From the NCBI GenBank assembly GCA_014653605.1, contig JACWEG010000001.1:121118-185117 (forward strand): DNA of 64,000 nucleotides, in the 5' to 3' direction. This document shows, one piece after another, positions 18,160 through 35,582 of the stretch. The notes beneath the pieces are model-generated. The model searched no databases, had not been told where the DNA came from, and saw only the letters and a program-made list of their open reading frames with translations. Every line of letters begins with the position of its first letter. Positions within the stretch are counted from its first letter, which is position 1. The stretch is from Pelagibacterales bacterium SAG-MED37. Its GTDB lineage: Bacteria; Pseudomonadota; Alphaproteobacteria; Pelagibacterales; Pelagibacteraceae. The position numbers were made by a program, and so were the translations under genes.

Positions 18160-19260
18160 TTAAATATTTAACTCTCGCTTGAGATGTTTTAATTTACCTT
18201 CTGTACTATCATAATCAATATAACAACCCTGAAGAAATCTATTACCTTCATTAGCATCGTATCTAGTTCGACCATGTAAAAGTCTATGATTGTCCATCAT
18301 TATTAAATCACCTGGAATTAATTTAAATTCAATACGGAATTTATCTGAATTATATAGCTCAGATATTTTTTTTCTTGCCGAATAAAATAATTCTAATTTT
18401 TCTTTATCTATTAAAGGAACAAAATCGAGCCTCGGACTAAATCTTACTTGTTTAAAATTTCCGTTTTGATCAAGTTCAATCATTTCTGACCAATTTTCTA
18501 AAATGACACTTCGATCTATAAATTGAAATCTTACTTTTGTTTCAGTTAAAATTTTATAATATTCAGGATAATCTTTTTTAAGACTTTCACTTACATTATA
18601 ACCATCAACTAAAGTAGACAAACCTCCTGTAACTTCGTTCTCGATACAATGTAGTAATTGAATACATGGCACAGGATTTCTATAGGGATTGTCTGTATGA
18701 GGAGCTAGAGGTAATGATGTATATGCTAAATCATTTGGATTGGGTTTTGATTTAACATTAAAAAATTCTCCAAAATTTGTTCTTCTAACACTTCCAATTG
18801 AATTAGCGAAATTTACAATAAAATTATTTTGGGTAGGTACTTTTTTAAATATAACAAAACCGTATTTATAAAAATGGATTAAAGCTTCATACATACTTTT
18901 CTTTTCAAAAATATTTTCTTCAAAATTAAAATTATTTGAGATTTTAAATGAAGAGTCCCATTTAACTTTACCTACATTTTGGTTATAACTGTCGTTTAAA
19001 AACTCTTTTAAAATATTTTCGATACTATATTTATTGTAAGTGCCATCGTTAAATGTAACTTCCAAGAAATTATCAGATAAGTTTAATTTATCGATTTTAA
19101 TGTTGTTTTTCAGTTCTGTTGGATCGAAAAGTCTTTGTTGTGTGATTTGATCTATGTATTTATCTCCATCAATTCTTTCTCTAAGCCAAAATGGATGAAT
19201 TTCTTTTTTTAACCCTTTATTTTCTAAAAAAACTTTATTTTCATTTAATTCAATTTTCAT
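18160..19260 (-). CDS. Gamma-butyrobetaine hydroxylase-like 2-oxoglutarate dioxygenase
   Basis: A 366-residue Fe(II)/2-oxoglutarate dioxygenase of the BBOX/TauD superfamily. The N-terminal small domain (about 1-95, DUF971-like) includes HPFWLRER and QQRLFDP. The catalytic domain has the H-x-D iron pair in PHTDNPYR and the distal His in HRLLHGRTRYD. The Cys residues that bind zinc in the N-terminal domain of known gamma-butyrobetaine hydroxylases are not present. It probably hydroxylates a trimethylammonium or related compound, but the substrate is uncertain. Confidence 0.85.
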   Translation of the reverse strand: MKIELNENKVFLENKGLKKEIHPFWLRERIDGDKYIDQITQQRLFDPTELKNNIKIDKLNLSDNFLEVTFNDGTYNKYSIENILKEFLNDSYNQNVGKVKWDSSFKISNNFNFEENIFEKKSMYEALIHFYKYGFVIFKKVPTQNNFIVNFANSIGSVRRTNFGEFFNVKSKPNPNDLAYTSLPLAPHTDNPYRNPVPCIQLLHCIENEVTGGLSTLVDGYNVSESLKKDYPEYYKILTETKVRFQFIDRSVILENWSEMIELDQNGNFKQVRFSPRLDFVPLIDKEKLELFYSARKKISELYNSDKFRIEFKLIPGDLIMMDNHRLLHGRTRYDANEGNRFLQGCYIDYDSTEGKLKHLKRELNI

Positions 19261-19326
19261 AAAGATTTTAAATGATTATTTAAAATTTAGCTTTAATCAA
19301 TAGTAATTAAATAGTATTAGTCCTGT

Positions 19327-20133
19327 GTGCCAATATTAAATTCTAGAGAATATAAAATTTACTCAAAATTCCTTGAAAATTTAGCAAGGAAATTAACCAG
19401 TTATTATTACTCCAAATTGAACAAAACCTTTAAAGTTTCAAATAAATTAAAGGGAAGGGGATATGACCCAGTTACAACCTCAGATAAAGCATTTGAAAAA
19501 TTTATTAGAAATGAGATTAAAAAGAAATTTCCAAACCATCAAGTGATTGGTGAAGAATTTGGATATAAAAAAACTAAAAGTGAATACACTTGGATAATTG
19601 ACCCAATTGATGGAACCAGGTCCTATGTAATAGGAAATCCTACTTGGAGCAATTTAGTTTCTCTAAATTATAAAGGCACACCTGTAGTTGGTTTAGCTAA
19701 TTATCCAGTACTTAGAAAATTTTACTTTAATTCGTCGGATAAGTTAGCCCATGTAGTTGAAAATGGAAAAAGAAAGAAAATAAAAGTTAATAAAAAAGCT
19801 TCTTTTAAAAATATTAAAATGTCAGCTGCTTTTCATGGAATGTTATCCTTAAATAAACAAAAAAAAATACCTCAAATATTAAAGTTAATGCAATTTCCCT
19901 GTGCAGATGCCCTTAGTTATTCTCACCTTGCAGAAGGAAAAGTAGATGTTGTTATTCAATGTGCAAATAAAAAATGGGATATTCACCCTTTAATTCCAAT
20001 TATAAAAGCTGCTGGTGGTGTCGTGAGTACTTGGAATAATAATGATGCGATTAAAGCCGGTAATATTGTCTCTTCTGCTAACTTGAAGATCCAAAATAAA
20101 ATTTTGAAATTATTGAAACCTGTTGCTAAGTAG
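19327..20133 (+). CDS. hisN: Inositol-monophosphatase-family phosphatase (HisN-type histidinol phosphatase)
   Basis: A Mg2+-dependent IMPase-fold phosphatase of 268 residues. The metal motifs are clear: TTSDKAFE, VIGEEFG, the IDPIDGTRSYVIG core, and KWDIHPLIPI near the end. The alphaproteobacterial HisN subgroup removes phosphate from histidinol phosphate, and the RSYVIGNPTW segment fits it. Other sugar phosphatases cannot be excluded. The start is GTG at 19327. The 3' end overlaps the convergent SMR gene by 8 bp. Confidence 0.78.
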   Translation: MPILNSREYKIYSKFLENLARKLTSYYYSKLNKTFKVSNKLKGRGYDPVTTSDKAFEKFIRNEIKKKFPNHQVIGEEFGYKKTKSEYTWIIDPIDGTRSYVIGNPTWSNLVSLNYKGTPVVGLANYPVLRKFYFNSSDKLAHVVENGKRKKIKVNKKASFKNIKMSAAFHGMLSLNKQKKIPQILKLMQFPCADALSYSHLAEGKVDVVIQCANKKWDIHPLIPIIKAAGGVVSTWNNNDAIKAGNIVSSANLKIQNKILKLLKPVAK

Positions 20134-20461
20134 TTTTACCAAAAGTATTTAATATAATTACTCCAATTATTATTAACGAGATCCCTAATATTCCATAAAA
20201 GTTTGGCATTTGATTGTATTTAATCAAACCAAAAACAGCAATTGCAGTTATTGTTAAACCTCCGTAAGTCGCATAAGTAAAGCCAACTGGGATTACTGAC
20301 ATTGCTTTTGAAAGAGAAAACATACAAACAAACATTAATACAAGACATGCAATTGTTGGGTTTAGTTTTGAAAATCCATCTGAAATTTTTGCAAAACTAT
20401 TAGCACTAATACCAGTTAAGATACCAAGTCCTAAAAACATATAACCTGAAAAAACACTCAT
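20126..20461 (-). CDS. SMR-family membrane protein lacking the conserved Glu
   Basis: A four-helix protein of 111 residues that aligns along its length with small multidrug resistance transporters (opening YMFLGLGILTG, then FAKISDGF and VGFTYATYGGLT). In EmrE-type members the helix-1 Glu drives proton-coupled export. Here the aligned position is Gly (ILTGISAN versus ILAEVIG in EmrE), and the conserved Trp of helix 3 is Tyr. It may transport by another mechanism, act in a heteromer, or have another role. It is the last gene of the minus-strand directon. Confidence 0.8.
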   Translation of the reverse strand: MSVFSGYMFLGLGILTGISANSFAKISDGFSKLNPTIACLVLMFVCMFSLSKAMSVIPVGFTYATYGGLTITAIAVFGLIKYNQMPNFYGILGISLIIIGVIILNTFGKTT

Positions 20462-20475
20462 TACAGAGAATATGA

Positions 20476-20697
20476 TTATTTAGTTATTTTATCTACAAAC
20501 TTTTTTGCAAGAGGACCAACTAAAAATGCAGCTGCTATAGCGATAGGAAGTCCAACTACCCATGCTTTCATAAACCTATTCAGATATCCATTATCCATAC
20601 CAGTATTAATATATGTAATGATTAAAGTCATGATTAAACTCATGCTAAAGCCCATGACCAATATAAATAGAAAGTTTGAATATTTTTTAGGCAACAT
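20476..20697 (-). CDS. DUF2798 family membrane protein
   Basis: A small protein of 73 residues with two membrane segments, matching the DUF2798 pattern: FILVMGFSMSLIMTLIIT, then RFMKAWVVGLPIAIAAAFLVGPLAKKFV. Function is unknown. I place the start at the ATG at 20697, which overlaps the stop of the upstream gene (TAATG) and fits coupled translation. The track start at 20712 adds five residues. Confidence 0.85.
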   Translation of the reverse strand: MLPKKYSNFLFILVMGFSMSLIMTLIITYINTGMDNGYLNRFMKAWVVGLPIAIAAAFLVGPLAKKFVDKITK

Positions 20698-21287
20698 TAT
20701 TTTTTTGCCCAATTAATAGCATCTTCCATTCTATCATCACCCCAAAATATTTCATTTTCAACTATAAAAGATGGACTACCAAATACTTTTTTTTTTCGTG
20801 CAGAATCTGTATTCGACATATATTTTTTCTCGAATATTTCAGATTTGGCTCTAGAAATTATCTCGTCTTTATTTAAACCTAATTCTTTACAAATTTCAGA
20901 AATACTAGGATCGATAGCTGGTTCTTTTCCTTCTTGAAACCATTTTTTATAAGTAAGTCTGATATAATCTGTACCCCAACCTTTATCTAATCCAAGAATA
21001 GCAATTTGATTTGCTAAGTCAAATTCAGATAATGGATAGGGCACTGGTGTTTTAGCAAAAAAACCATAGCCCTCAGCACGTCTCTCTATGTCTCGCCACA
21101 TATAATTTACTTTATTTATTTTATCTTTCGGAAATGGAATATTGTCCATTTCTTTCATAATTACTCTGACACTAAAAGGTTTCCAATTAAATTTAATCTG
21201 ATGCTTTTTTTCTACATCAAGAATTCTAGTGACAGTCAGATAGGTATATGTACTTCCTATTGAAAAATAAAAATCTATATTTTTCAC
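20697..21287 (-). CDS. DsbA-family oxidoreductase / 2-hydroxychromene-2-carboxylate isomerase-like
   Basis: A 196-residue thioredoxin-fold protein of the kappa-GST/HCCA isomerase group. Near the N-terminus, FYFSIGSTYTYL replaces the CxxC of DsbA, as in glutathione-dependent isomerases. FGSPSFIVENEIFWGDDRM near the C-terminus is the family's cis-Pro and closing segment. It probably uses glutathione on a small aromatic or electrophilic substrate, which is unknown. The start is GTG immediately after the stop of the NTF2-like gene. It belongs to the 12-gene directon. Confidence 0.85.
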   Translation of the reverse strand: MKNIDFYFSIGSTYTYLTVTRILDVEKKHQIKFNWKPFSVRVIMKEMDNIPFPKDKINKVNYMWRDIERRAEGYGFFAKTPVPYPLSEFDLANQIAILGLDKGWGTDYIRLTYKKWFQEGKEPAIDPSISEICKELGLNKDEIISRAKSEIFEKKYMSNTDSARKKKVFGSPSFIVENEIFWGDDRMEDAINWAKK

Positions 21288-21608
21288 TTATTTTGAAAGT
21301 TTAGTTGCACCTGTCTCTAAACTAATAATTTTTCCATCTTTGTATTTGTAAACTGCCATTACAGCTTCAACATTTCCATCATTAAATGTAACTATTGAAT
21401 GATGAACTCCAACTTCATCATTTTCGTAGACTACTCTTGCTTTATCTTGATTAATATCGCCACTCATTGCCCATTTTATAACATCAGCCTTACCTATGGT
21501 ATTTCCTGATTTATGCATTGTAAATTTAAAATCATCATGCAAAAGTTCATTCATAGTTGACTCATCTTTATTATTAATTGCTTTTGTATATTTCTCTAAC
21601 ATCGACAT
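21288..21608 (-). CDS. NTF2/SnoaL-like small protein
   Basis: A 106-residue cone-fold protein resembling the SnoaL/NTF2-like group: MLEKYTKAINNKDESTMNELLHDDFKF, then GKADVIKWA and a beta-rich second half ending ISLETGATKLSK. The fold binds small hydrophobic molecules and serves as isomerase, cyclase or binding protein. No catalytic set can be assigned. It is packed one base after the DUF1330 gene and directly before the isomerase-like gene, suggesting a shared small-molecule pathway. Confidence 0.75.
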   Translation of the reverse strand: MSMLEKYTKAINNKDESTMNELLHDDFKFTMHKSGNTIGKADVIKWAMSGDINQDKARVVYENDEVGVHHSIVTFNDGNVEAVMAVYKYKDGKIISLETGATKLSK

Positions 21609-21609
21609 T

Positions 21610-21897
21610 TTATACTCCTTTAATAATTATTCCATTACTGACTGAATTGTCTAAACGGATTTGTTTAATTGGTTTATATTCCTCTGAGTCATACCACTCT
21701 AAAGCTTTTTCGTAACTTGGAAATTTTATAATGATTGTTCTGGGATATGTCCAGGTACCTTCAATCACTTTAGTTTCACCACCTCTGACAATATATTCAC
21801 CTCCAAATTTTTTAGCTATTGATGTTACCTTCTCAACGTATTCTTTATATTCTTCAGGTTTTTTTATTTCTATATTAAAAATAACAAAACCTGGCAT
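21610..21897 (-). CDS. DUF1330 family protein
   Basis: A 95-residue dimeric alpha/beta-barrel type protein of the DUF1330 family. It shows YKEYVEKVTSIAKKFGGEYIVRGG, then IIIKFPSYEKALEWYDSEEY, which are the two halves of the family signature. Biochemical function is unknown. Members resemble small monooxygenases or isomerases. It lies 6 bp downstream of the cupin gene. Confidence 0.88.
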   Translation of the reverse strand: MPGFVIFNIEIKKPEEYKEYVEKVTSIAKKFGGEYIVRGGETKVIEGTWTYPRTIIIKFPSYEKALEWYDSEEYKPIKQIRLDNSVSNGIIIKGV

Positions 21898-21903
21898 TAA
21901 AGA

Positions 21904-22254
21904 TCATTCACCCCACATTCCATGAAATTCATAAACAACTGCTGGTTCATTTCCAACTACCCAACCATCGTGTCCAGGCTGAATCGAATAAGCATCCCCA
22001 GCTTTGTATGTCATCTCTGTACCATCATTATGTTTCGCGCAAACAGCTCCTGAAACAATTACACCCAAATGTGTTGCTTGGCAGCTATCACCACCAACTG
22101 TAGGCTTGATATCTTTTGACCATTTCCATCCAGGTTGCAATGTAAGTTTCATTACCCTCTGGTTTCCAACTTTTACTGCTTCAATTTTTGCATTATTAAA
22201 ACTATTATTAACTTCATCTGCTTTTTCAAAAGTTTTCACTTCTACTCCTGCCAT
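21904..22254 (-). CDS. Cupin-domain protein
   Basis: A 116-residue single-domain cupin. The first cupin motif is ATHLGVIVSGAVCAKHNDG and the second is AGDAYSIQPGHDGWVVG. Only some of the usual metal-binding His/Glu residues are visible (H in ATHLG, H in PGHDGW), so metal binding is plausible but not certain. It may be a dioxygenase, isomerase or sensor. It is encoded mid-directon, 15 bp after a membrane protein gene and 6 bp before DUF1330. Confidence 0.85.
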   Translation of the reverse strand: MAGVEVKTFEKADEVNNSFNNAKIEAVKVGNQRVMKLTLQPGWKWSKDIKPTVGGDSCQATHLGVIVSGAVCAKHNDGTEMTYKAGDAYSIQPGHDGWVVGNEPAVVYEFHGMWGE

Positions 22255-22269
22255 GACATCTCCTTTTAT

Positions 22270-22686
22270 TTAAACGTAGATTTTATCAGCCAAACCATAA
22301 CAAAGTACAGCACTTAATATAGTATGGGCTAATGGGCCATAAATTGCTTCATCCGAAGTTTTATCTGTATGTCCAAGTTTATTTATTTTAGTACTATAAA
22401 AACCAACAATAAAAGCACATAGGTTTTGTAAAAATACTAAATTAAAGAATGCCCAAGCAGCTTCTAAGCCGTTAGGTCTTATAAAGCCGACATAGATTGC
22501 CATTAAGGTTGAACCGATAAAAAAACATCCAAAAAATCTAACTACACCTGCGCCTGTAGCATCGATCCCATATTTATCCAAAAAAGTTTGAGTTTGGACA
22601 ACACATCTAAATCCATAAAAAGCATAACCTATAAAATGAATTATAAAAATTGCTAAGTAAAATATTCCACCAAATTTATCTATCAT
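22270..22686 (-). CDS. Four-helix membrane protein, unrecognised
   Basis: A 138-residue protein with about four hydrophobic segments (near residues 6-26, 45-65, 74-95 and 118-136) and a short polar loop HTDKTSDEAIYG before the last. I do not recognise the family with confidence. Its place between small soluble enzymes suggests a membrane partner or carrier in the same pathway. It has a normal ribosome site and no oddities. Confidence 0.7.
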   Translation of the reverse strand: MIDKFGGIFYLAIFIIHFIGYAFYGFRCVVQTQTFLDKYGIDATGAGVVRFFGCFFIGSTLMAIYVGFIRPNGLEAAWAFFNLVFLQNLCAFIVGFYSTKINKLGHTDKTSDEAIYGPLAHTILSAVLCYGLADKIYV

Positions 22687-22713
22687 TACTATTTTCTTAA
22701 TCCTTTGTTAAAT

Positions 22714-23025
22714 TTATTCACTAAAGATCGGTCTGATCTCATCTTCAATTGTTCCTTCTATAGCAACATCTTTTAATTGCTCTTGAAGTTTTATATATTC
22801 AGGATCTGCAGACATGTTAGCGTCAGCATCATTATCACCTTCAAACATAGTTCCAATTAAAGTTTCTCTTATTGTTCTTGGATCTCCACCCATTTGAAAA
22901 GAAAAATAGACATCATGGTTAGGATAATGTTTTTTTCTAACTGCTGCTAAACCTTTTCCAATTTCCATAGCTTTTCCTAGACCATCATCTTTCACTCTCA
23001 TTGTTCTAGTATAAATTGCCTTCAT
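22714..23025 (-). CDS. Small soluble protein (103 aa), probably alpha/beta-barrel type, unrecognised
   Basis: A 103-residue cytosolic protein. The N-terminal MKAIYTRTMRVKDDGLGKAMEIGKG and a middle beta segment around DVYFSFQMGGD look like a ferredoxin-like (dimeric alpha/beta barrel) fold, as in NIPSNAP or ABM proteins. No family can be named. A C-terminal acidic stretch is present. It has a GGAG ribosome site and lies between two other small ORFs of similar size in the directon. Confidence 0.7.
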   Translation of the reverse strand: MKAIYTRTMRVKDDGLGKAMEIGKGLAAVRKKHYPNHDVYFSFQMGGDPRTIRETLIGTMFEGDNDADANMSADPEYIKLQEQLKDVAIEGTIEDEIRPIFSE

Positions 23026-23059
23026 TGTTTCTCCTTATTGAGTCAAAGTTTAGATACTT

Positions 23060-23350
23060 TTATTTAGCATTAAAATCTATAATATCATCTGTACACTCAA
23101 CAAATTTGTGAGGTTCATAGAAATCGTTCATAGACTCTAATTGTTTATTAATTGCATCTGGATCTGTACCTTTCCACCAGCAAAACATTGTTAAGTTATC
23201 ACCTGGCGTATTCCAGCTCATTTGACACTTTGCATTGTCACTTGTCATTGCCTTAGTCATATCTTCCATCGACATTGAACCAGTAACTTCTATCATTTTA
23301 GCTTTTGCCTCTTTTGACTTAAAAGTGTGTGTGACTATATAATTTTTCAT
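23060..23350 (-). CDS. Small soluble protein (96 aa), unrecognised
   Basis: A 96-residue protein with a beginning like ferredoxin-like fold proteins (MKNYIVTHTFKSKEAKAKM) and a C-half containing TMFCWWKGTDPDAI and MNDFYEPHKFVECTDD. Its size and predicted beta-alpha-beta pattern resemble the adjacent 94- and 103-residue proteins, so the three may be diverged members of one fold. Function unknown. It is packed 7 bp after the 94-aa gene. Confidence 0.7.
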   Translation of the reverse strand: MKNYIVTHTFKSKEAKAKMIEVTGSMSMEDMTKAMTSDNAKCQMSWNTPGDNLTMFCWWKGTDPDAINKQLESMNDFYEPHKFVECTDDIIDFNAK

Positions 23351-23357
23351 ATTTCTC

Positions 23358-23642
23358 CTATTTTACTTTTGTTAAATCATAAATGGAATAGCTATCTATA
23401 ACAGCATCCATAACAGGTTTTGATACCTCAGTACCTTCAATGAACTTATGCAATCCAGGTTCATCAATGCAAAATATCTTAAACATCACAGTTTTTTTAT
23501 CTGGGGCTACCGTTCCAATAGTTTTTTCCACTACTGCAACTTTAGCTCTTTCTGCCAAACCCTCTGGTGATTGCATAAATCCCATAAACTTTTCTAACGT
23601 ACCTTCTTTTAATTTAGCCACTACTAACATTTCTTTTTCCAT
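23358..23642 (-). CDS. Small soluble protein (94 aa), monooxygenase-like fold, unrecognised
   Basis: A 94-residue protein opening MEKEMLVVAKLKEGTLEKFMGFMQS, an arrangement seen in antibiotic-biosynthesis-monooxygenase-like folds, with a second beta strand pair around KTVMFKIFCID. I cannot assign a family. It follows the secreted beta-rich protein gene by 23 bp and has a strong GGAG ribosome site. Confidence 0.7.
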   Translation of the reverse strand: MEKEMLVVAKLKEGTLEKFMGFMQSPEGLAERAKVAVVEKTIGTVAPDKKTVMFKIFCIDEPGLHKFIEGTEVSKPVMDAVIDSYSIYDLTKVK

Positions 23643-23665
23643 TTTATCTCCTTTAATTAATTAAT

Positions 23666-24142
23666 TTAATATGTGTACTCACCACTCATTTGATTCATTG
23701 AATGAGCAAATCCACTTTTTCCTTTAAGGTTCTGTCTACTTGAAAAACCAGTTCCTGAAATTTTTTCATATTTTCCAGTACCGCCAACAATTATAAAACT
23801 TCCAGATCCACCTTGACCTCCAGTTCCTTTACCTTTGTAATTTATAAAAACTTTTTCACCATCAGCTAAATAAAAAGTACACATACCTGTTTCATCTTCA
23901 AACTTACCACCCACTAATGTAAGTCCTCCAACACAATTCATTGTAGATTTATCAAATATACTATTAGGGTCTTTGTCAGCAAGACCAGCATTTCCATCAT
24001 AAGTTATAGCCATATTACCATTGCCAGCATTCATGATATTCATTTCCCAAGATCCCATGCCACTTGCATTAAATTTCCCTGAATTAGCAAAAGCCACTGT
24101 AGAAATAATTGTAAACATTAAAGTTATTATTATCTTTTTCAT
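23666..24142 (-). CDS. Secreted beta-barrel-like protein (158 aa)
   Basis: A 158-residue protein with a signal peptide (about 1-19, cleavage after AFA). The mature part is Gly-rich and mostly beta, with two Cys (MNCVGG and GMCTF) that could form a disulfide. A GGTGKYEKISGTG segment resembles that found in allene-oxide-cyclase-like and dirigent-like barrels. It is therefore probably a small periplasmic barrel that binds a hydrophobic ligand; this is inference from one motif. Second gene of the directon. Confidence 0.7.
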   Translation of the reverse strand: MKKIIITLMFTIISTVAFANSGKFNASGMGSWEMNIMNAGNGNMAITYDGNAGLADKDPNSIFDKSTMNCVGGLTLVGGKFEDETGMCTFYLADGEKVFINYKGKGTGGQGGSGSFIIVGGTGKYEKISGTGFSSRQNLKGKSGFAHSMNQMSGEYTY

Positions 24143-24157
24143 TTTTGCTCCTTTCTA

Positions 24158-24550
24158 TTAATATAAAGTTTGGATTACTTTTTTAACTCTTTCAGCCCCA
24201 TTAGGAACTAAAGCCTCAACGTAAGAATGACATTTGTCAGTTTTAGCTTTGTCATATTTCGATCCGTAATGTTTATCCACTGCTTTATTAACTCCTTCAT
24301 CCCACTCTTTTTCTGGAATACCTATTTCAAGAGCGTAAGATTTTAAAACCTTTACAGTTGATATAGATTTTTCTTTCATTGCGTATTCAAATGTTTCACC
24401 AGATGGAAGAAAGTAGTTAGCCATATAAATACCAACGCAGTCCCAAGCTTTGGACTTATCGTTGTCACTCATACCAGCCAATGATGCAGTAGATATTAGA
24501 ATTGCTACACAGTAAGTAGCAAATATTTTTAAAGTATTTTTTATAAGCAT
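24158..24550 (-). CDS. Secreted helical protein with conserved-looking Cys pair (130 aa)
   Basis: First gene of the directon. It has a signal peptide (about 1-25, ending ASLA) and a mature helical protein with Cys in AWDCVGIYM and DKCHSYVEAL, which could form a disulfide. I do not recognise the family. I start it at the ATG at 24550 because GGAG lies at the correct distance upstream; the track's TTG at 24565 adds five residues and overlaps that ribosome site. Two exported proteins at the head of the directon imply a periplasmic task. Confidence 0.7.
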   Translation of the reverse strand: MLIKNTLKIFATYCVAILISTASLAGMSDNDKSKAWDCVGIYMANYFLPSGETFEYAMKEKSISTVKVLKSYALEIGIPEKEWDEGVNKAVDKHYGSKYDKAKTDKCHSYVEALVPNGAERVKKVIQTLY

Positions 24551-24619
24551 TGTATCTCCATTCAAATAAAGATCTCCGCTAATCTTTATTTAATTTTTAC
24601 GTTAATTAAATATATGTTT

Positions 24620-24640
24620 AAAAAGTAACAGTTTTGTTAC
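24620..24640 (-). terminator. Terminator-like hairpin after cysK
   Basis: Read on the minus strand, a 6-bp stem GTAACA/TGTTAC with loop AAAC is followed by TTTTT, 18 bp after the cysK stop. The stem is short and AT-rich, so termination is probably partial. It separates cysK from the directon that begins at 24550. Confidence 0.55.
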
Positions 24641-24652
24641 ATAGCAGCTATG
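24640..24652. promoter_or_regulatory. 13-bp palindrome upstream of the directon
   Basis: CATAGC-A-GCTATG is a perfect odd palindrome directly next to the cysK terminator and about 90 bp upstream of the first directon gene. It may extend the terminator structure or be an operator for the directon. Nothing in the window identifies a regulator. Confidence 0.4.
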
Positions 24653-27358: not shown

Positions 27359-28087
27359 GTGACAATTATAGCGCATGTTAAATTCTCTATTAGTAATTAT
27401 TTTAAAAATATGAGTGATTTAAATAAACATTTTCAACCAAAAAACTTTAGTGACAAGGTTGCTTTATCTTTTACTAAATTTTTAAGGTTGCTAGCAGATA
27501 CTTTTTTTAAAAAAAGATATGGCCATAGAGCTGTAGTACTAGAAACAGTTGCAGCTGTCCCAGGAATGGTTGCTGGAATGTTGTTACACTTAAAATCTCT
27601 TAGAAAAATAGAAGATGATAAAGGTTGGATAAAAACTCTTTTAGATGAAGCTGAAAATGAAAGAATGCATTTAATGACTTTTGTTCATATTGCAAAACCA
27701 ACTGCTATTGAAAGATTTATAATTATGATTGCTCAATTCATTTTTATTTTAACTTATGCAATAATATATTTAGTCTCTCAAAGAACTGCACATAGAATTG
27801 TTGGTTATTTTGAAGAGGAAGCTGTTATTAGTTATACTGAATATTTAAATGAGCTTGAAGCTGGAACTATTCCTGATCAACCTGCTCCTGAAATTGCAAT
27901 AAATTATTGGAACCTACCACTACATTCAACACTTAAAGATGTTGTAAGAGTAATAAGAGATGATGAAGCTGGACATAGAGATGTAAATCATCAGTTTGCT
28001 AATTTAATTAATATAAAAAAATCAAAAAAAAATATTGTTACAAAAGACAAAATTAAAGAAGAAAAAACTGAAGAAATTTTAAATTAA
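27359..28087 (+). CDS. aox: Alternative oxidase (cyanide-insensitive ubiquinol oxidase)
   Basis: A membrane-bound di-iron quinol oxidase that reduces oxygen without proton pumping. All family iron-ligand motifs are present: [10 protein letters not shown] (Glu), [13 protein letters not shown] (Glu, His), [14 protein letters not shown] (Glu), and [12 protein letters not shown] (Glu, His). Two membrane-binding hydrophobic helices lie between. Length (242) is short because mitochondrial targeting sequence is absent. The track start is GTG at 27359; ATG at 27410 is an alternative, and neither has a good ribosome site. Confidence 0.93.
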
Positions 28088-28100
28088 TCCTTAATTTAAT

Positions 28101-28562
28101 ATGATTGATAAAAGAAAATTTTTAAAATTATTAGGATTTTCTTATTTATTATTTTTAGCTTTACCCTACAGGGTTTTATCATCAGCAACCAAAAAAATTA
28201 TTAATCCAAATCTTTCAAAAGCTCAAAAAAATATAATGTTTAATGAAGGTACAGAAAGAGCTTTTACAAGTGATTTACTTAAAGAAGATAGAGAGGGATT
28301 TTATCATTGTGCAAACTGTAATGCTAAGCTATTTGCATCTAATTCAAAATTTGATAGTGGAACAGGGTGGCCTTCATTTTCAGAAGCGTTACCAGGAGCG
28401 TTTAAAACAAAAATAGATTATTCTTTTGGTATGAAGCGAGTTGAATATCATTGTGCAAACTGCGGTGCTCATCATGGTCATGTTTTTTTAGATGGTCCAA
28501 CTGCTACTGGAAAAAGATTTTGTAATAATGGATTGTGTTTAATTTTTATTCCAGAAAATTAA
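28101..28562 (+). CDS. msrB: Exported peptide-methionine (R)-S-oxide reductase
   Basis: Repairs oxidised methionine. The zinc Cys pairs are CANCNAKLF and CANCGAHHGHVF. The substrate motif DSGTGWPSF and the C-terminal catalytic Cys in GKRFCNNGLCLIF fit MsrB. The N-terminus (MIDKRKFLKLLGFSYLLFLALP) looks like a secretion signal with a K-R-x-F-L-K twin-arginine-like motif, so the protein may be exported folded, like periplasmic MsrB forms. It follows the alternative oxidase by 13 bp. Confidence 0.92.
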   Translation: MIDKRKFLKLLGFSYLLFLALPYRVLSSATKKIINPNLSKAQKNIMFNEGTERAFTSDLLKEDREGFYHCANCNAKLFASNSKFDSGTGWPSFSEALPGAFKTKIDYSFGMKRVEYHCANCGAHHGHVFLDGPTATGKRFCNNGLCLIFIPEN

Positions 28563-31828: not shown

Positions 31829-33754
31829 CTATCCTTTTCCGCGCCATGGGATTGTTTTATCTATAATTTTTCTCAAAGTGATATCAAACAATAATCCAAG
31901 CATACCCATTATAAATATTGTTATCCAAATCACTTCATATTGAAAATATTTTTTTGCAACGTTTTCTACAAATCCAATACCCGTTGTACCTGCTAAAAAC
32001 TCTGCTGCAACTAAAGTTCCCCAACACATACCTACTGCAACTCTTATACCAGTAAGAATTTCCGGTAATGAATTAGGAAATATTACGTGTCTTAGTATTT
32101 GTCGTTTAGATGCTCCCAATGAATGAGCAGCATGAATCTTAGAAAGCTGAGTCCCGGAGGCACCAGCTCTAGCTGAAATAATCATAATTGATAAAGAAAC
32201 CATAAATAAAAGAAATACTTTTCCAGTGTTATCTATACCCAATACAGAAATAATTAGTGGTGCCCAAGCTAAAGGGGGAACAGGTCTATAAAGTTCAATC
32301 AAAGGATCAAAAAAACCTTTGGCAAATCTATTTAGTCCCATGAATAAACCTAACGGTACACCAATGATTATTCCAAACACTAATCCTAGAAAAACTCTCA
32401 AAAATGAATCCCAGATGTGTCCGTAAGGTACTGGTACCTTAAATAATTTGAAATCACCTGTTACAACTTTTAAAACATTACCTTTGAAATTTTCTTTTAC
32501 AATTCCATCTTTAGTATGAACTGGATATTCACCAGGTAAAATATCTGCTATCCAATCAGGTAAAATAAATCCAATCATTTTACTGACATCAACCATATCT
32601 ATCCAAAGAAGAGGTATATCTTTGTAACCAACGCTTGGTTTTGACATTAATATAAACTTGTTAAAAGTATCAGATGGTTTTGGAAGCCATCTACCAGAAC
32701 CTTGTTCAGAACAACTTGGACCACTAGCAACTATTGTTCCGGCTGGGAATAACAAAATATCTATAAATCTTAGACCACCTTGTGTCTTTAATTGTGCATT
32801 ATCAAATTTAATAATAGCATTTTGCATTTTGTTTAATGCATTAGGTGGATATATACTTGCAAATTCTATTCTTCTTGCGATCTTTATAATATTTTTTGCA
32901 TAGGTAGATGCTACTTCCTCACTGTCACTTAGATCTTTTCTATAAGATTTAATATCATCTTTAAGCTGTTTAATTTGATTTTTAAATTGAGGATTATGAT
33001 TTCTTAGTTTAAAAAATTCATCACTAATTAAGTTTAATTCTTGCGCAGCAGCATGAAATTTTAAACCTCTATCAGTTGCTGGAATTAAGGGTACTTCCAT
33101 AGTATTTTCTATAGAACCAGTTCCTGATTGTACTTTTACAATTCCCCATCCACCTTCTTCACTTACAGCTTTAAGTCTTTCATTAAGTTCCTGTTCAGTT
33201 TCAAATGGATAATCTGGTTTTTGAAAATTTTCAGTTAAAAGGTTAATTTTACCTGTTATATCATTAATCTTTTGTTTGGTTTCATTTTCAATCAAATCTT
33301 CATTTGTTAATAATGGAATTAATTGATTTGTTTTCTTTATAAATCCCGCAAGAACTGTTTTTTGTTGATTATCTATTTCTTGAGAATTTTGTATTTCGTT
33401 TAAAATTAGATTAAGATTTTTATTTTCTTTCTTGATTTGAGATGTACTTTTGAATTCCCTTTCTTCAATAGGAAATTGATATTTTAAACCTAGCAATGAG
33501 TCATTTACTTTTGCTACTTGGCAAAGTTCGTTAGCAGATTTTGGATAAAATCCTTTTGCAATATCCCATGAATAATAAAGCCAAACTAAAAGAAGAAAGC
33601 TGCTTCCTACGATAACCCAATGCGTACCACCTAATGCTCTTTCAGGATTACCAAATACCGCATCAACTTTTTCAGTTTTAATTAGTTTTCTTCCATAAAG
33701 AATACAGCCTATAACCGCTACAAAAATTAAAAAAGTTACTATTTGAGTAAGCAT
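31829..33754 (-). CDS. tauC: TauC-like ABC permease with a large N-terminal extension
   Basis: The inner-membrane permease of the adjacent ABC importer. The last about 200 residues (from about 438) are a standard TauC/SsuC domain with the ATPase-contact loop HSLGASKRQILRHVIFPNSLPEI. The first about 435 residues are extra. Two membrane segments near 3-20 and 47-66 are followed by a mostly helical region of about 330 residues, probably periplasmic, with a short hydrophobic re-entry around 325-345 and 385-400. Normal TauC proteins are 250-280 residues, so this is more than twice the usual size. Frame is open throughout, so it is not a frameshift artefact. Confidence 0.88.
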   Translation of the reverse strand: MLTQIVTFLIFVAVIGCILYGRKLIKTEKVDAVFGNPERALGGTHWVIVGSSFLLLVWLYYSWDIAKGFYPKSANELCQVAKVNDSLLGLKYQFPIEEREFKSTSQIKKENKNLNLILNEIQNSQEIDNQQKTVLAGFIKKTNQLIPLLTNEDLIENETKQKINDITGKINLLTENFQKPDYPFETEQELNERLKAVSEEGGWGIVKVQSGTGSIENTMEVPLIPATDRGLKFHAAAQELNLISDEFFKLRNHNPQFKNQIKQLKDDIKSYRKDLSDSEEVASTYAKNIIKIARRIEFASIYPPNALNKMQNAIIKFDNAQLKTQGGLRFIDILLFPAGTIVASGPSCSEQGSGRWLPKPSDTFNKFILMSKPSVGYKDIPLLWIDMVDVSKMIGFILPDWIADILPGEYPVHTKDGIVKENFKGNVLKVVTGDFKLFKVPVPYGHIWDSFLRVFLGLVFGIIIGVPLGLFMGLNRFAKGFFDPLIELYRPVPPLAWAPLIISVLGIDNTGKVFLLFMVSLSIMIISARAGASGTQLSKIHAAHSLGASKRQILRHVIFPNSLPEILTGIRVAVGMCWGTLVAAEFLAGTTGIGFVENVAKKYFQYEVIWITIFIMGMLGLLFDITLRKIIDKTIPWRGKG

Positions 33755-34552
33755 TTAAATATCTTTCCCCATAATTTCTTCTTCCATATTCCAAATCATT
33801 TCTAAAATTTCTTCACGCTTTGCAGAAAAATCTTTATTTTTTTTTATTTCCCTTAAATCTTCTTTTAATCCCATCGAAGCAAAAGGTAGATTGTATTCTT
33901 TATGTATACGGCCTGGTCTAGGAGCCATCACGTAAAGTCTTTCACCAAGTAATAAAGCCTCTTCAACTGAGTGAGTAATTAAGATAATTGTTTTGCCAGT
34001 TTCTTTCCAAATTTTTAAAACTAAAGACTGCATTTTTTCTCTGGTTAATGCATCAAGTGCACCTAATGGTTCATCCATTAAAATTAAATCTGGATCGTTA
34101 ATTAGACATCTTGCTAGAGCAACTCTTTGCTGCATTCCTCCTGACAACTGATAGGTTGGAGTATTACCAAATCCCTGTAAACCTACAATTTCCAACCACT
34201 CATCTACTTTTTTTGCAGTTTGTATAGGATCTTCTTTCTTCATTCTTAATCCAAAGTTTACATTCTCTGCAACAGTTAACCATTCAAACAAAGCTCCTTG
34301 TTGAAAAACCATTCCTCTTTCAACACCAGGACCATCAATTTCTTTATTATTTAAAGTGATAACACCTGAAGTTGGCCTGATAAATCCTGCAGTGATATTA
34401 AGTAAAGTTGTTTTCCCACAACCAGATGGACCAAGAACTGTAAGAAGTTCTCCTTTTTTAAGTGTAAAATTTAAATCTTTTAAAGCGTGAACCGTTTCTC
34501 CTTTTGGAGTCTTAAAAATCATATTAAGATTTTGAGAAATTAGATCACTCAT
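33755..34552 (-). CDS. tauB: Taurine/sulfonate-type ABC transporter ATP-binding protein
   Basis: The ATPase of the importer, 265 residues. Walker A is GPSGCGKTT (about 41-49), signature QLSGGMQQRVALARCL, Walker B LILMDEPLGALD and switch His in ILITHSVEEA. It groups with the nitrate/sulfonate/taurine ATPases. It abuts the permease gene and is separated from the binding-protein gene by a strong hairpin. Confidence 0.92.
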   Translation of the reverse strand: MSDLISQNLNMIFKTPKGETVHALKDLNFTLKKGELLTVLGPSGCGKTTLLNITAGFIRPTSGVITLNNKEIDGPGVERGMVFQQGALFEWLTVAENVNFGLRMKKEDPIQTAKKVDEWLEIVGLQGFGNTPTYQLSGGMQQRVALARCLINDPDLILMDEPLGALDALTREKMQSLVLKIWKETGKTIILITHSVEEALLLGERLYVMAPRPGRIHKEYNLPFASMGLKEDLREIKKNKDFSAKREEILEMIWNMEEEIMGKDI

Positions 34553-34580
34553 AAAATGACTTTATATTAAAATTTTTATT

Positions 34581-34620
34581 AAAAAAATAGGCACCAATTT
34601 AATAAAATTGGCGCCTATTT
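34581..34620 (-). terminator. Attenuator/terminator hairpin between tauA and tauB
   Basis: On the minus strand, 16-bp arms (34605-34620 and 34585-34600, one G-U pair) close a 4-base loop and run into a T-rich tract. The hairpin lies about 20 bp after the binding-protein stop and about 30 bp before the ATPase start. It should give more binding protein than ATPase and permease. Confidence 0.85.
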
Positions 34621-34640
34621 AAATTTTAAATACCTTTAGA

Positions 34641-35582
34641 TTATAAAGGTAAGAAACTAGTGTCTACATTCCCTCTTGGAGTTCCCATACCTTTTAGGAA
34701 CGCATCAAGATTTCCACTTTCCATAGAACTTTTTGTTTCTTCTGGAGTTAGGAATTTAAATCCACTTAAAGTATCTTTCATATCAGCAACTTTCATTTCT
34801 GAAGCTTTTGCCATAACACTCATATTGCTTTTACCAGCTTTGTATCTAGCATTAGCTTCGTGAGTTACTTCTATAAAAGTTCTAAGCATACCTGGATTTT
34901 CTTTCATAAACTTTGTAGTTACTGAAGTAATATCTATTCCAAGAATACCTGCAGCTCTAGCTTCGTCTACTGTTAGAAGTCTTGATCCTACAGCAGTAGC
35001 AGCTTTAATTGAGTTACCACCAAATAAACATGCCATTACAACATCACCACTTACTAATGCAGCAGCTCCTTCTTCAGGATCCATTTGAATAATATCCATT
35101 TTGCCTCTATCAGCTCCAACTACTTTCATACTTTCATCAAAAACGTATTCAGCCATTGTTCCTAATGGAACAGCAACTTTCTTACCTTCTAATTCAGTAG
35201 CATTTGCTTTTGTAATTCCAGAAGCATTAGAAGTAACACAAGTTGTTCCTCCCATTCCGTATTCCATAGCAATATCAACTAGTTTAATTGGTGCTTTAGA
35301 TTTAACAGCATTAATGAAAGGTACTAAACCTTGAGAATAAGAAATATCTATATCTCCTGCAAGCATAGCATCAGTCATTGCTCCACCGTTTGTAAAATTT
35401 GTCCATTTAACTGGAACACCAAGAGCTTTAGCGAACGCTTTTTTTTGCATATCCTCTAAATTTGGACTTGGCCATTCTAGAAAATAAGCAACTCTAACTT
35501 CATTAGCAGCCGCATTAGCAGCAGAAATACTTAAGTTAAGAGCTACAAAACATCCTAGAAGAAAACTTATTATTTTTTTCAT
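34641..35582 (-). CDS. tauA: Taurine ABC transporter substrate-binding protein (TauA-like)
   Basis: A periplasmic binding protein of 313 residues with a signal peptide (about 1-24, ending ANAA). It is type II, with the TauA/SsuA-style opening VRVAYFLEWPSPNL and a ligand-pocket region around SYSQGLVPF and VPLGTMAEYVFDE. Taurine specificity is inferred from the divergent taurine aminotransferase gene and from family resemblance. It is the first gene of the minus-strand operon and has its own downstream hairpin for high expression. Confidence 0.87.
   Translation of the reverse strand: MKKIISFLLGCFVALNLSISAANAAANEVRVAYFLEWPSPNLEDMQKKAFAKALGVPVKWTNFTNGGAMTDAMLAGDIDISYSQGLVPFINAVKSKAPIKLVDIAMEYGMGGTTCVTSNASGITKANATELEGKKVAVPLGTMAEYVFDESMKVVGADRGKMDIIQMDPEEGAAALVSGDVVMACLFGGNSIKAATAVGSRLLTVDEARAAGILGIDITSVTTKFMKENPGMLRTFIEVTHEANARYKAGKSNMSVMAKASEMKVADMKDTLSGFKFLTPEETKSSMESGNLDAFLKGMGTPRGNVDTSFLPL

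Follow-up and report, generated by a model that had tools for sequence, protein, structure and literature searches.

SAR11 bacteria are the commonest bacteria in the ocean, and apart from four hypervariable regions (HVR1-4) their genomes are regarded as highly conserved. The closest described systems are those regions and the replacement flexible genomic islands, clusters of surface-structure genes that are exchanged whole (PMC4033161), and homologous recombination is described as widespread in SAR11 (PMC12421898). The locus described here lies in the window, a 64,000-nucleotide stretch of a SAR11 draft genome that is 78.7% complete, so that statements on the rest of the source genome are limited. 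It occupies a slot that is distinct from all four of these regions and absent from the HVR1-4 gene lists (PMC2217521). In the literature searched we found no paper naming its protein families in SAR11, an absence that is no proof that none exists.

In the window, the slot is filled by a row of twelve minus-strand open reading frames (20126-24550) with gaps of 34 bp or less, a directon that the earlier note had described and that the reading frames and their coordinates confirm. The intergenic gaps, in coordinate order, are 14, -1, 0, 1, 6, 15, 27, 34, 7, 23 and 15 bp, a spacing that suggests that the twelve genes are co-transcribed. The features of the row and its borders are listed below, with occurrence given as the fraction of 133 SAR11 slots that contain the gene.

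18160-20133, both strands: second border, an inositol-monophosphatase-like gene (IMP, plus strand) and a TauD-like gene (minus strand); Pfam E 3.5e-43 and 2e-42
20126-20461, minus strand: SMR-like membrane protein; Pfam E 6.5e-16, alignment to EmrE
20476-20697, minus strand: DUF2798 membrane protein, 73 aa; Pfam E 4.8e-21; 117/133 slots
20697-21287, minus strand: DsbA-fold protein without CxxC, isomerase-like; Pfam DSBA E 1.4e-25
21288-21608, minus strand: SnoaL/NTF2-like protein; Pfam SnoaL_2 E 4.2e-8; 122/133 slots
21610-21897, minus strand: DUF1330 protein; Pfam E 5.7e-31; 65/133 slots
21904-22254, minus strand: cupin-like protein; Pfam Cupin_2 E 5.8e-4, below the cut-off; 40/133 slots
22270-22686, minus strand: TM4, membrane protein, 138 aa; alignment
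22714-23025, minus strand: abC, 103 aa, predicted NIPSNAP/ABM-type alpha/beta-barrel; AlphaFold and Foldseek
23060-23350, minus strand: abB, soluble, 96 aa; weak Pfam match, SCO4226-like, E 0.073; dN/dS 0.037; 88/133 slots
23358-23642, minus strand: abA, soluble, 94 aa, at least two allele groups by alignment; 107/133 slots, also in another bacterial order
23666-24142, minus strand: barrel, exported, 158 aa, predicted beta barrel of dirigent/allene-oxide-cyclase type; AlphaFold and Foldseek; 50/133 slots
24158-24550, minus strand: sec1, exported, 130 aa, no assigned family, first gene of the row; ORF; 114/133 slots
24562-24593, minus strand: candidate hairpin in the sec1 leader, restricted to one allele group; folding z -2.5
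24620-24642, minus strand: conserved dyad with a T-run just after cysK; single exact copy in the genome
24658-26233, minus strand: first border, cysK and cysE (serine acetyltransferase-like); Pfam PALP E 2.4e-71, hexapeptide transferase

Confident Pfam matches in the row, to SMR, DUF2798, DSBA, SnoaL_2 and DUF1330, agree with family assignments made earlier from the DNA letters and the translated reading frames, and the match behind the cupin assignment is weak. The 103-, 96- and 94-aa proteins, TM4 and both exported proteins match no Pfam family above the cut-off, and an Rfam scan around the slot gave no match. All twelve genes have dN/dS values of 0.04-0.28, indicating purifying selection. 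Recurrence of the gene order in 133 slots and such values in all twelve genes put the row far outside what chance would produce.

The dyad behind cysK is probably the cysK terminator, and the row would have a separate promoter. The same motif was considered as the operator of a regulon and rejected, since the genome contains only one exact copy. In the leader hairpin, two pairs carry a change on both sides, in two allele variants, covariation that lends modest support to this predicted structure. At the other end of the row, the SMR gene and IMP, which lie on opposite strands, share eight bases at their ends (20126-20133). Elsewhere in the window lie an alternative-oxidase-like gene, read from motifs (27359-28087), with an MsrB-like gene nearby (28101-28562), and a transporter set resembling the taurine ABC transporter tauABC (31829-35582), with the TauD-like gene at 18160 in the same region.

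A search with abC yielded 80 SAR11 loci, to which further slots from the same genus, some without abC, were added. Nearly all abC loci that reach far enough carry their genes between cysE-cysK and IMP-TauD. We counted slots in the SAR11 genus with both borders present, 133 in all; 68 slots were sampled through abC, which biases the sampling, and 12 of the 40 extra slots were left out because the IMP border was absent from the fetched stretch. The 133 slots contain 97 gene sets in 103 arrangements, with a median intergenic gap of 12 bp. The order of same-strand genes is conserved in 98.6% of pairs (99 slots), compared with 59% after shuffling; the remaining 34 slots, in which TM4 is inverted and lies beside cysK, conserve order in 94.8% of gene pairs, compared with 67% after shuffling. 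Whether the set stays together in SAR11, a check that the earlier note had proposed, can thus be answered: the genes are not scattered, and their order is near-fixed. Every one of the twelve, the supposed exporters included, is nonetheless absent or replaced in some slots, and one slot (L136) contains only an SMR pair, one gene of 69 aa and, on the opposite strand, F17 and F18.

Other slots carry further families, among them GYD (below its cut-off), DUF3764, ABM, SnoaL and tautomerase. In one of them (L151:4073-8387), two photolyase-family genes, a DUF2805 gene, a DCC1-like gene and an SDR gene lie between the usual genes and IMP, and genes resembling this photolyase-type set are found near a lone abC in L161. 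An exported cupredoxin-like protein is encoded in three slots (L058:4153-4656, L121:10052-10558 and L149:3765-4268), a gene resembling it is present in L161 (13056-13553), and one slot has a glutathione-reductase-like gene. The part of the annotated slot genes that was scanned includes no integrase.

Small genes might simply accumulate behind cysK, where insertion would be harmless, without sharing any function. The highly varied content and single-copy oddities such as the photolyase cluster are what such a permissive site would produce, but order and strand are fixed relative to shuffles, the range of dN/dS values indicates selection on every gene, the same fold classes recur, and a four-gene cluster from the row is found elsewhere (see below), making this explanation very improbable. 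A phage-defence or phage-derived island is more improbable still: many variable islands of marine bacteria are considered phage-driven (PMC4033161), yet no PADLOC and no PHROG match was obtained (10 of the 12 proteins tested with each), and abC has no relative in viral contigs. Finally, the row could be a stress operon for the repair or removal of light and oxidative damage products (quinones, oxidised lipids and reactive aldehydes), its variants suiting different light or depth regimes. We consider this unlikely, since such genes are rare in the slots and no oxidative-stress regulator is present, despite the photolyase-family, DUF2805 and DCC1-like genes in one slot, the cupredoxin-like gene in three, the glutathione-reductase-like gene in one and a glyoxalase-family gene beyond cysE.

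DNA identity to the window jumps from gene to gene within single slots. The L006 slot is 92% identical in cysK, 99% in abA and in the cupin gene and 100% in SnoaL, with 73% in SMR and 75% in IMP; L004 is 99% identical in abB and 98% in TM4, then 64% in SnoaL and 61% in SMR; and L022 has flanks 98-99% identical, compared with 82% for TM4 and 69% for SMR. The gene set differs in 69 of 120 locus pairs with flank proteins more than 97% identical. In a flank-protein tree, which rests on genes that may themselves recombine, the presence of single genes switches up to 28 times (barrel) and the alleles of abA, abB, abC, SnoaL and TM4 switch 12 to 19 times, while the inverted-TM4 arrangement switches only twice. 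Judged from these comparisons, alleles are swapped singly, gene by gene, and homologous recombination would be the simplest cause of the exchange.

Our preferred reading, with a probability of about 0.5, is that the twelve genes are the variant, in one strain, of a modular operon that encodes stand-alone small-molecule proteins and is exchanged gene by gene through recombination. One fixed pathway is unlikely because of the 97 gene sets, the near-identical flanks with differing content, the identity jumps and the single-allele swaps. A pathway that takes up a single compound, converts it stepwise and exports it, in which abA, cupin, abC and SnoaL might form the core and the other genes be accessories, would account for the single strand and fixed order in SAR11. 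It also gains from a different alphaproteobacterial order, in two genomes of which (G326 and G623) these four genes lie together between unrelated genes; a third genome, G601, has a lone, distant abC. Because the four genes are together at an unrelated site, the cluster speaks for a putative functional link among them and against chance piling, and its retention in another order hints at some cooperation. Every gene is missing from some slots, however, the four core candidates included, alleles vary independently, and the row contains neither a large biosynthetic gene nor one dedicated to uptake. The earlier proposal of a shared uptake, conversion and export pathway is therefore not supported by the comparison of slots, nor does it sit with an SMR protein that lacks Glu14 (see below).

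Structure prediction places two of the row's products in known fold classes. The single-chain AlphaFold model of the 158-aa exported protein (pLDDT 86.7) is an eight-strand antiparallel barrel that Foldseek matches to dirigent, allene oxide cyclase (AOC) and PloI4 structures with moderate scores (TM about 0.4-0.6), which bears out the suggestion that this protein is barrel-like. In the abC model, also single-chain (pLDDT 80.4), the elements run beta-alpha-beta-beta-alpha-beta, and Foldseek matches it to structures of NIPSNAP, ABM and LsrG (best E 5.2e-6, TM up to 0.80). The idea of three alpha/beta-barrel proteins thus holds for abC, whereas no mutual relation among abA, abB and abC was found by comparison of their (shallow) profiles. 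Neither these three nor the barrel, the cupin or the DUF3764 group has a credible sequence match to a solved structure. Of the 297 genomes examined from the order, 63 encode abC, and these belong to a single genus; among 399 genomes drawn from the phylum, abC was found in none besides the window's own.

Among the other soluble and exported products, sec1 has a single N-terminal hydrophobic segment in a hydropathy scan, and the cupin-like protein conserves the His of its PGHD motif. A second DUF1330 gene stands alone elsewhere in the genome, and the SnoaL/NTF2-like protein is the only match to its family in the draft. CxxC, as expected of a DsbA thiol oxidoreductase, occurs in none of the 61 relatives of the DsbA-like protein, which fits a glutathione-dependent isomerase type with a putative catalytic Ser. 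Small hydrophobic compounds, suggested earlier as targets, are plausible on the fold class alone.

TM4, described earlier as a four-helix protein, is a membrane protein with three clear segments in a simple hydropathy scan, and the fourth is unconfirmed. The SMR-like protein belongs to the SMR family by its Pfam score (59.1 bits, cut-off 23.7) and scores below every NCBIfam SMR cut-off. Glu14 is essential in EmrE. All 224 related SMR proteins have Gly at this position; they have no acidic residue in helix 1 and carry Tyr or Phe at the position of Trp63. Since Gly replaces the essential Glu14 in all 224 relatives, ordinary proton-coupled drug export by the row's SMR protein is unlikely.

A modular operon would work as follows. 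Between cysE-cysK and IMP-TauD lies a tightly spaced row on one strand that retains its order, although individual genes have been acquired, lost, duplicated or exchanged for other alleles. The genes would be transcribed together and would pass from strain to strain through homologous recombination within the flanking and core genes, which are conserved. The soluble members appear to be small single-domain pocket folds (NIPSNAP/ABM-like, DUF1330, SnoaL, cupin, a dirigent/AOC-like barrel and a DsbA-like isomerase), assigned by modelling for two proteins and by family reading for the others. Each product would mostly act alone, by isomerising, cyclising, oxidising or binding small molecules that are hydrophobic or reactive; we infer this stand-alone action only because the genes are dispensable. 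The membrane proteins, including the Glu-less SMR protein, may pass or flip molecules across the membrane without pumping by proton exchange, and an altered gene mix would tune the compounds that a streamlined cell uses or detoxifies.

More tentatively, and with somewhat less confidence than we place in the modular operon itself, the slot may be an integrase-free counterpart of a cassette array: an operon of fixed address and fixed order in which single genes, for stand-alone barrel enzymes and a Glu-less SMR protein, are shuffled within the population by homologous recombination. This would allow a streamlined genome to try out many reactions of small molecules. A fixed slot with this many gene sets is a potential source of chemical differences between strains, it names small, expressible proteins for assay, and an entire group of SMR proteins that lack the coupling glutamate raises the question of cargo and mechanism.

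The slot resembles replacement flexible genomic islands and HVR1-4 in its fixed address, changing content and signs of exchange between strains, and like those islands it has different genes at the same location (97 gene sets in 133 slots). It differs in that identity and alleles vary gene by gene within an ordered row, rather than by exchange of a whole cluster, and in that it encodes pocket-fold proteins that are soluble, together with small membrane proteins, instead of exposed cell structures. At the level of single proteins, the predicted fold of abC is that of NIPSNAP, ABM and LsrG proteins, and DUF1330, GYD, DUF3764 and ABM matches occur among the slot genes, yet no member of known structure is detectably related to abC in sequence. 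The modelled eight-strand barrel of the 158-aa protein is like those of dirigent proteins, allene oxide cyclase and the PloI4 cyclase, whereas the protein itself is exported and bacterial and has no sequence relation to the solved structures. Similarly, the slot SMR protein matches Pfam Multi_Drug_Res and aligns with EmrE over its full length, while its relatives depart from EmrE in having Gly in place of Glu14 (224/224) and an alternative aromatic residue, Tyr or Phe, in place of Trp63.
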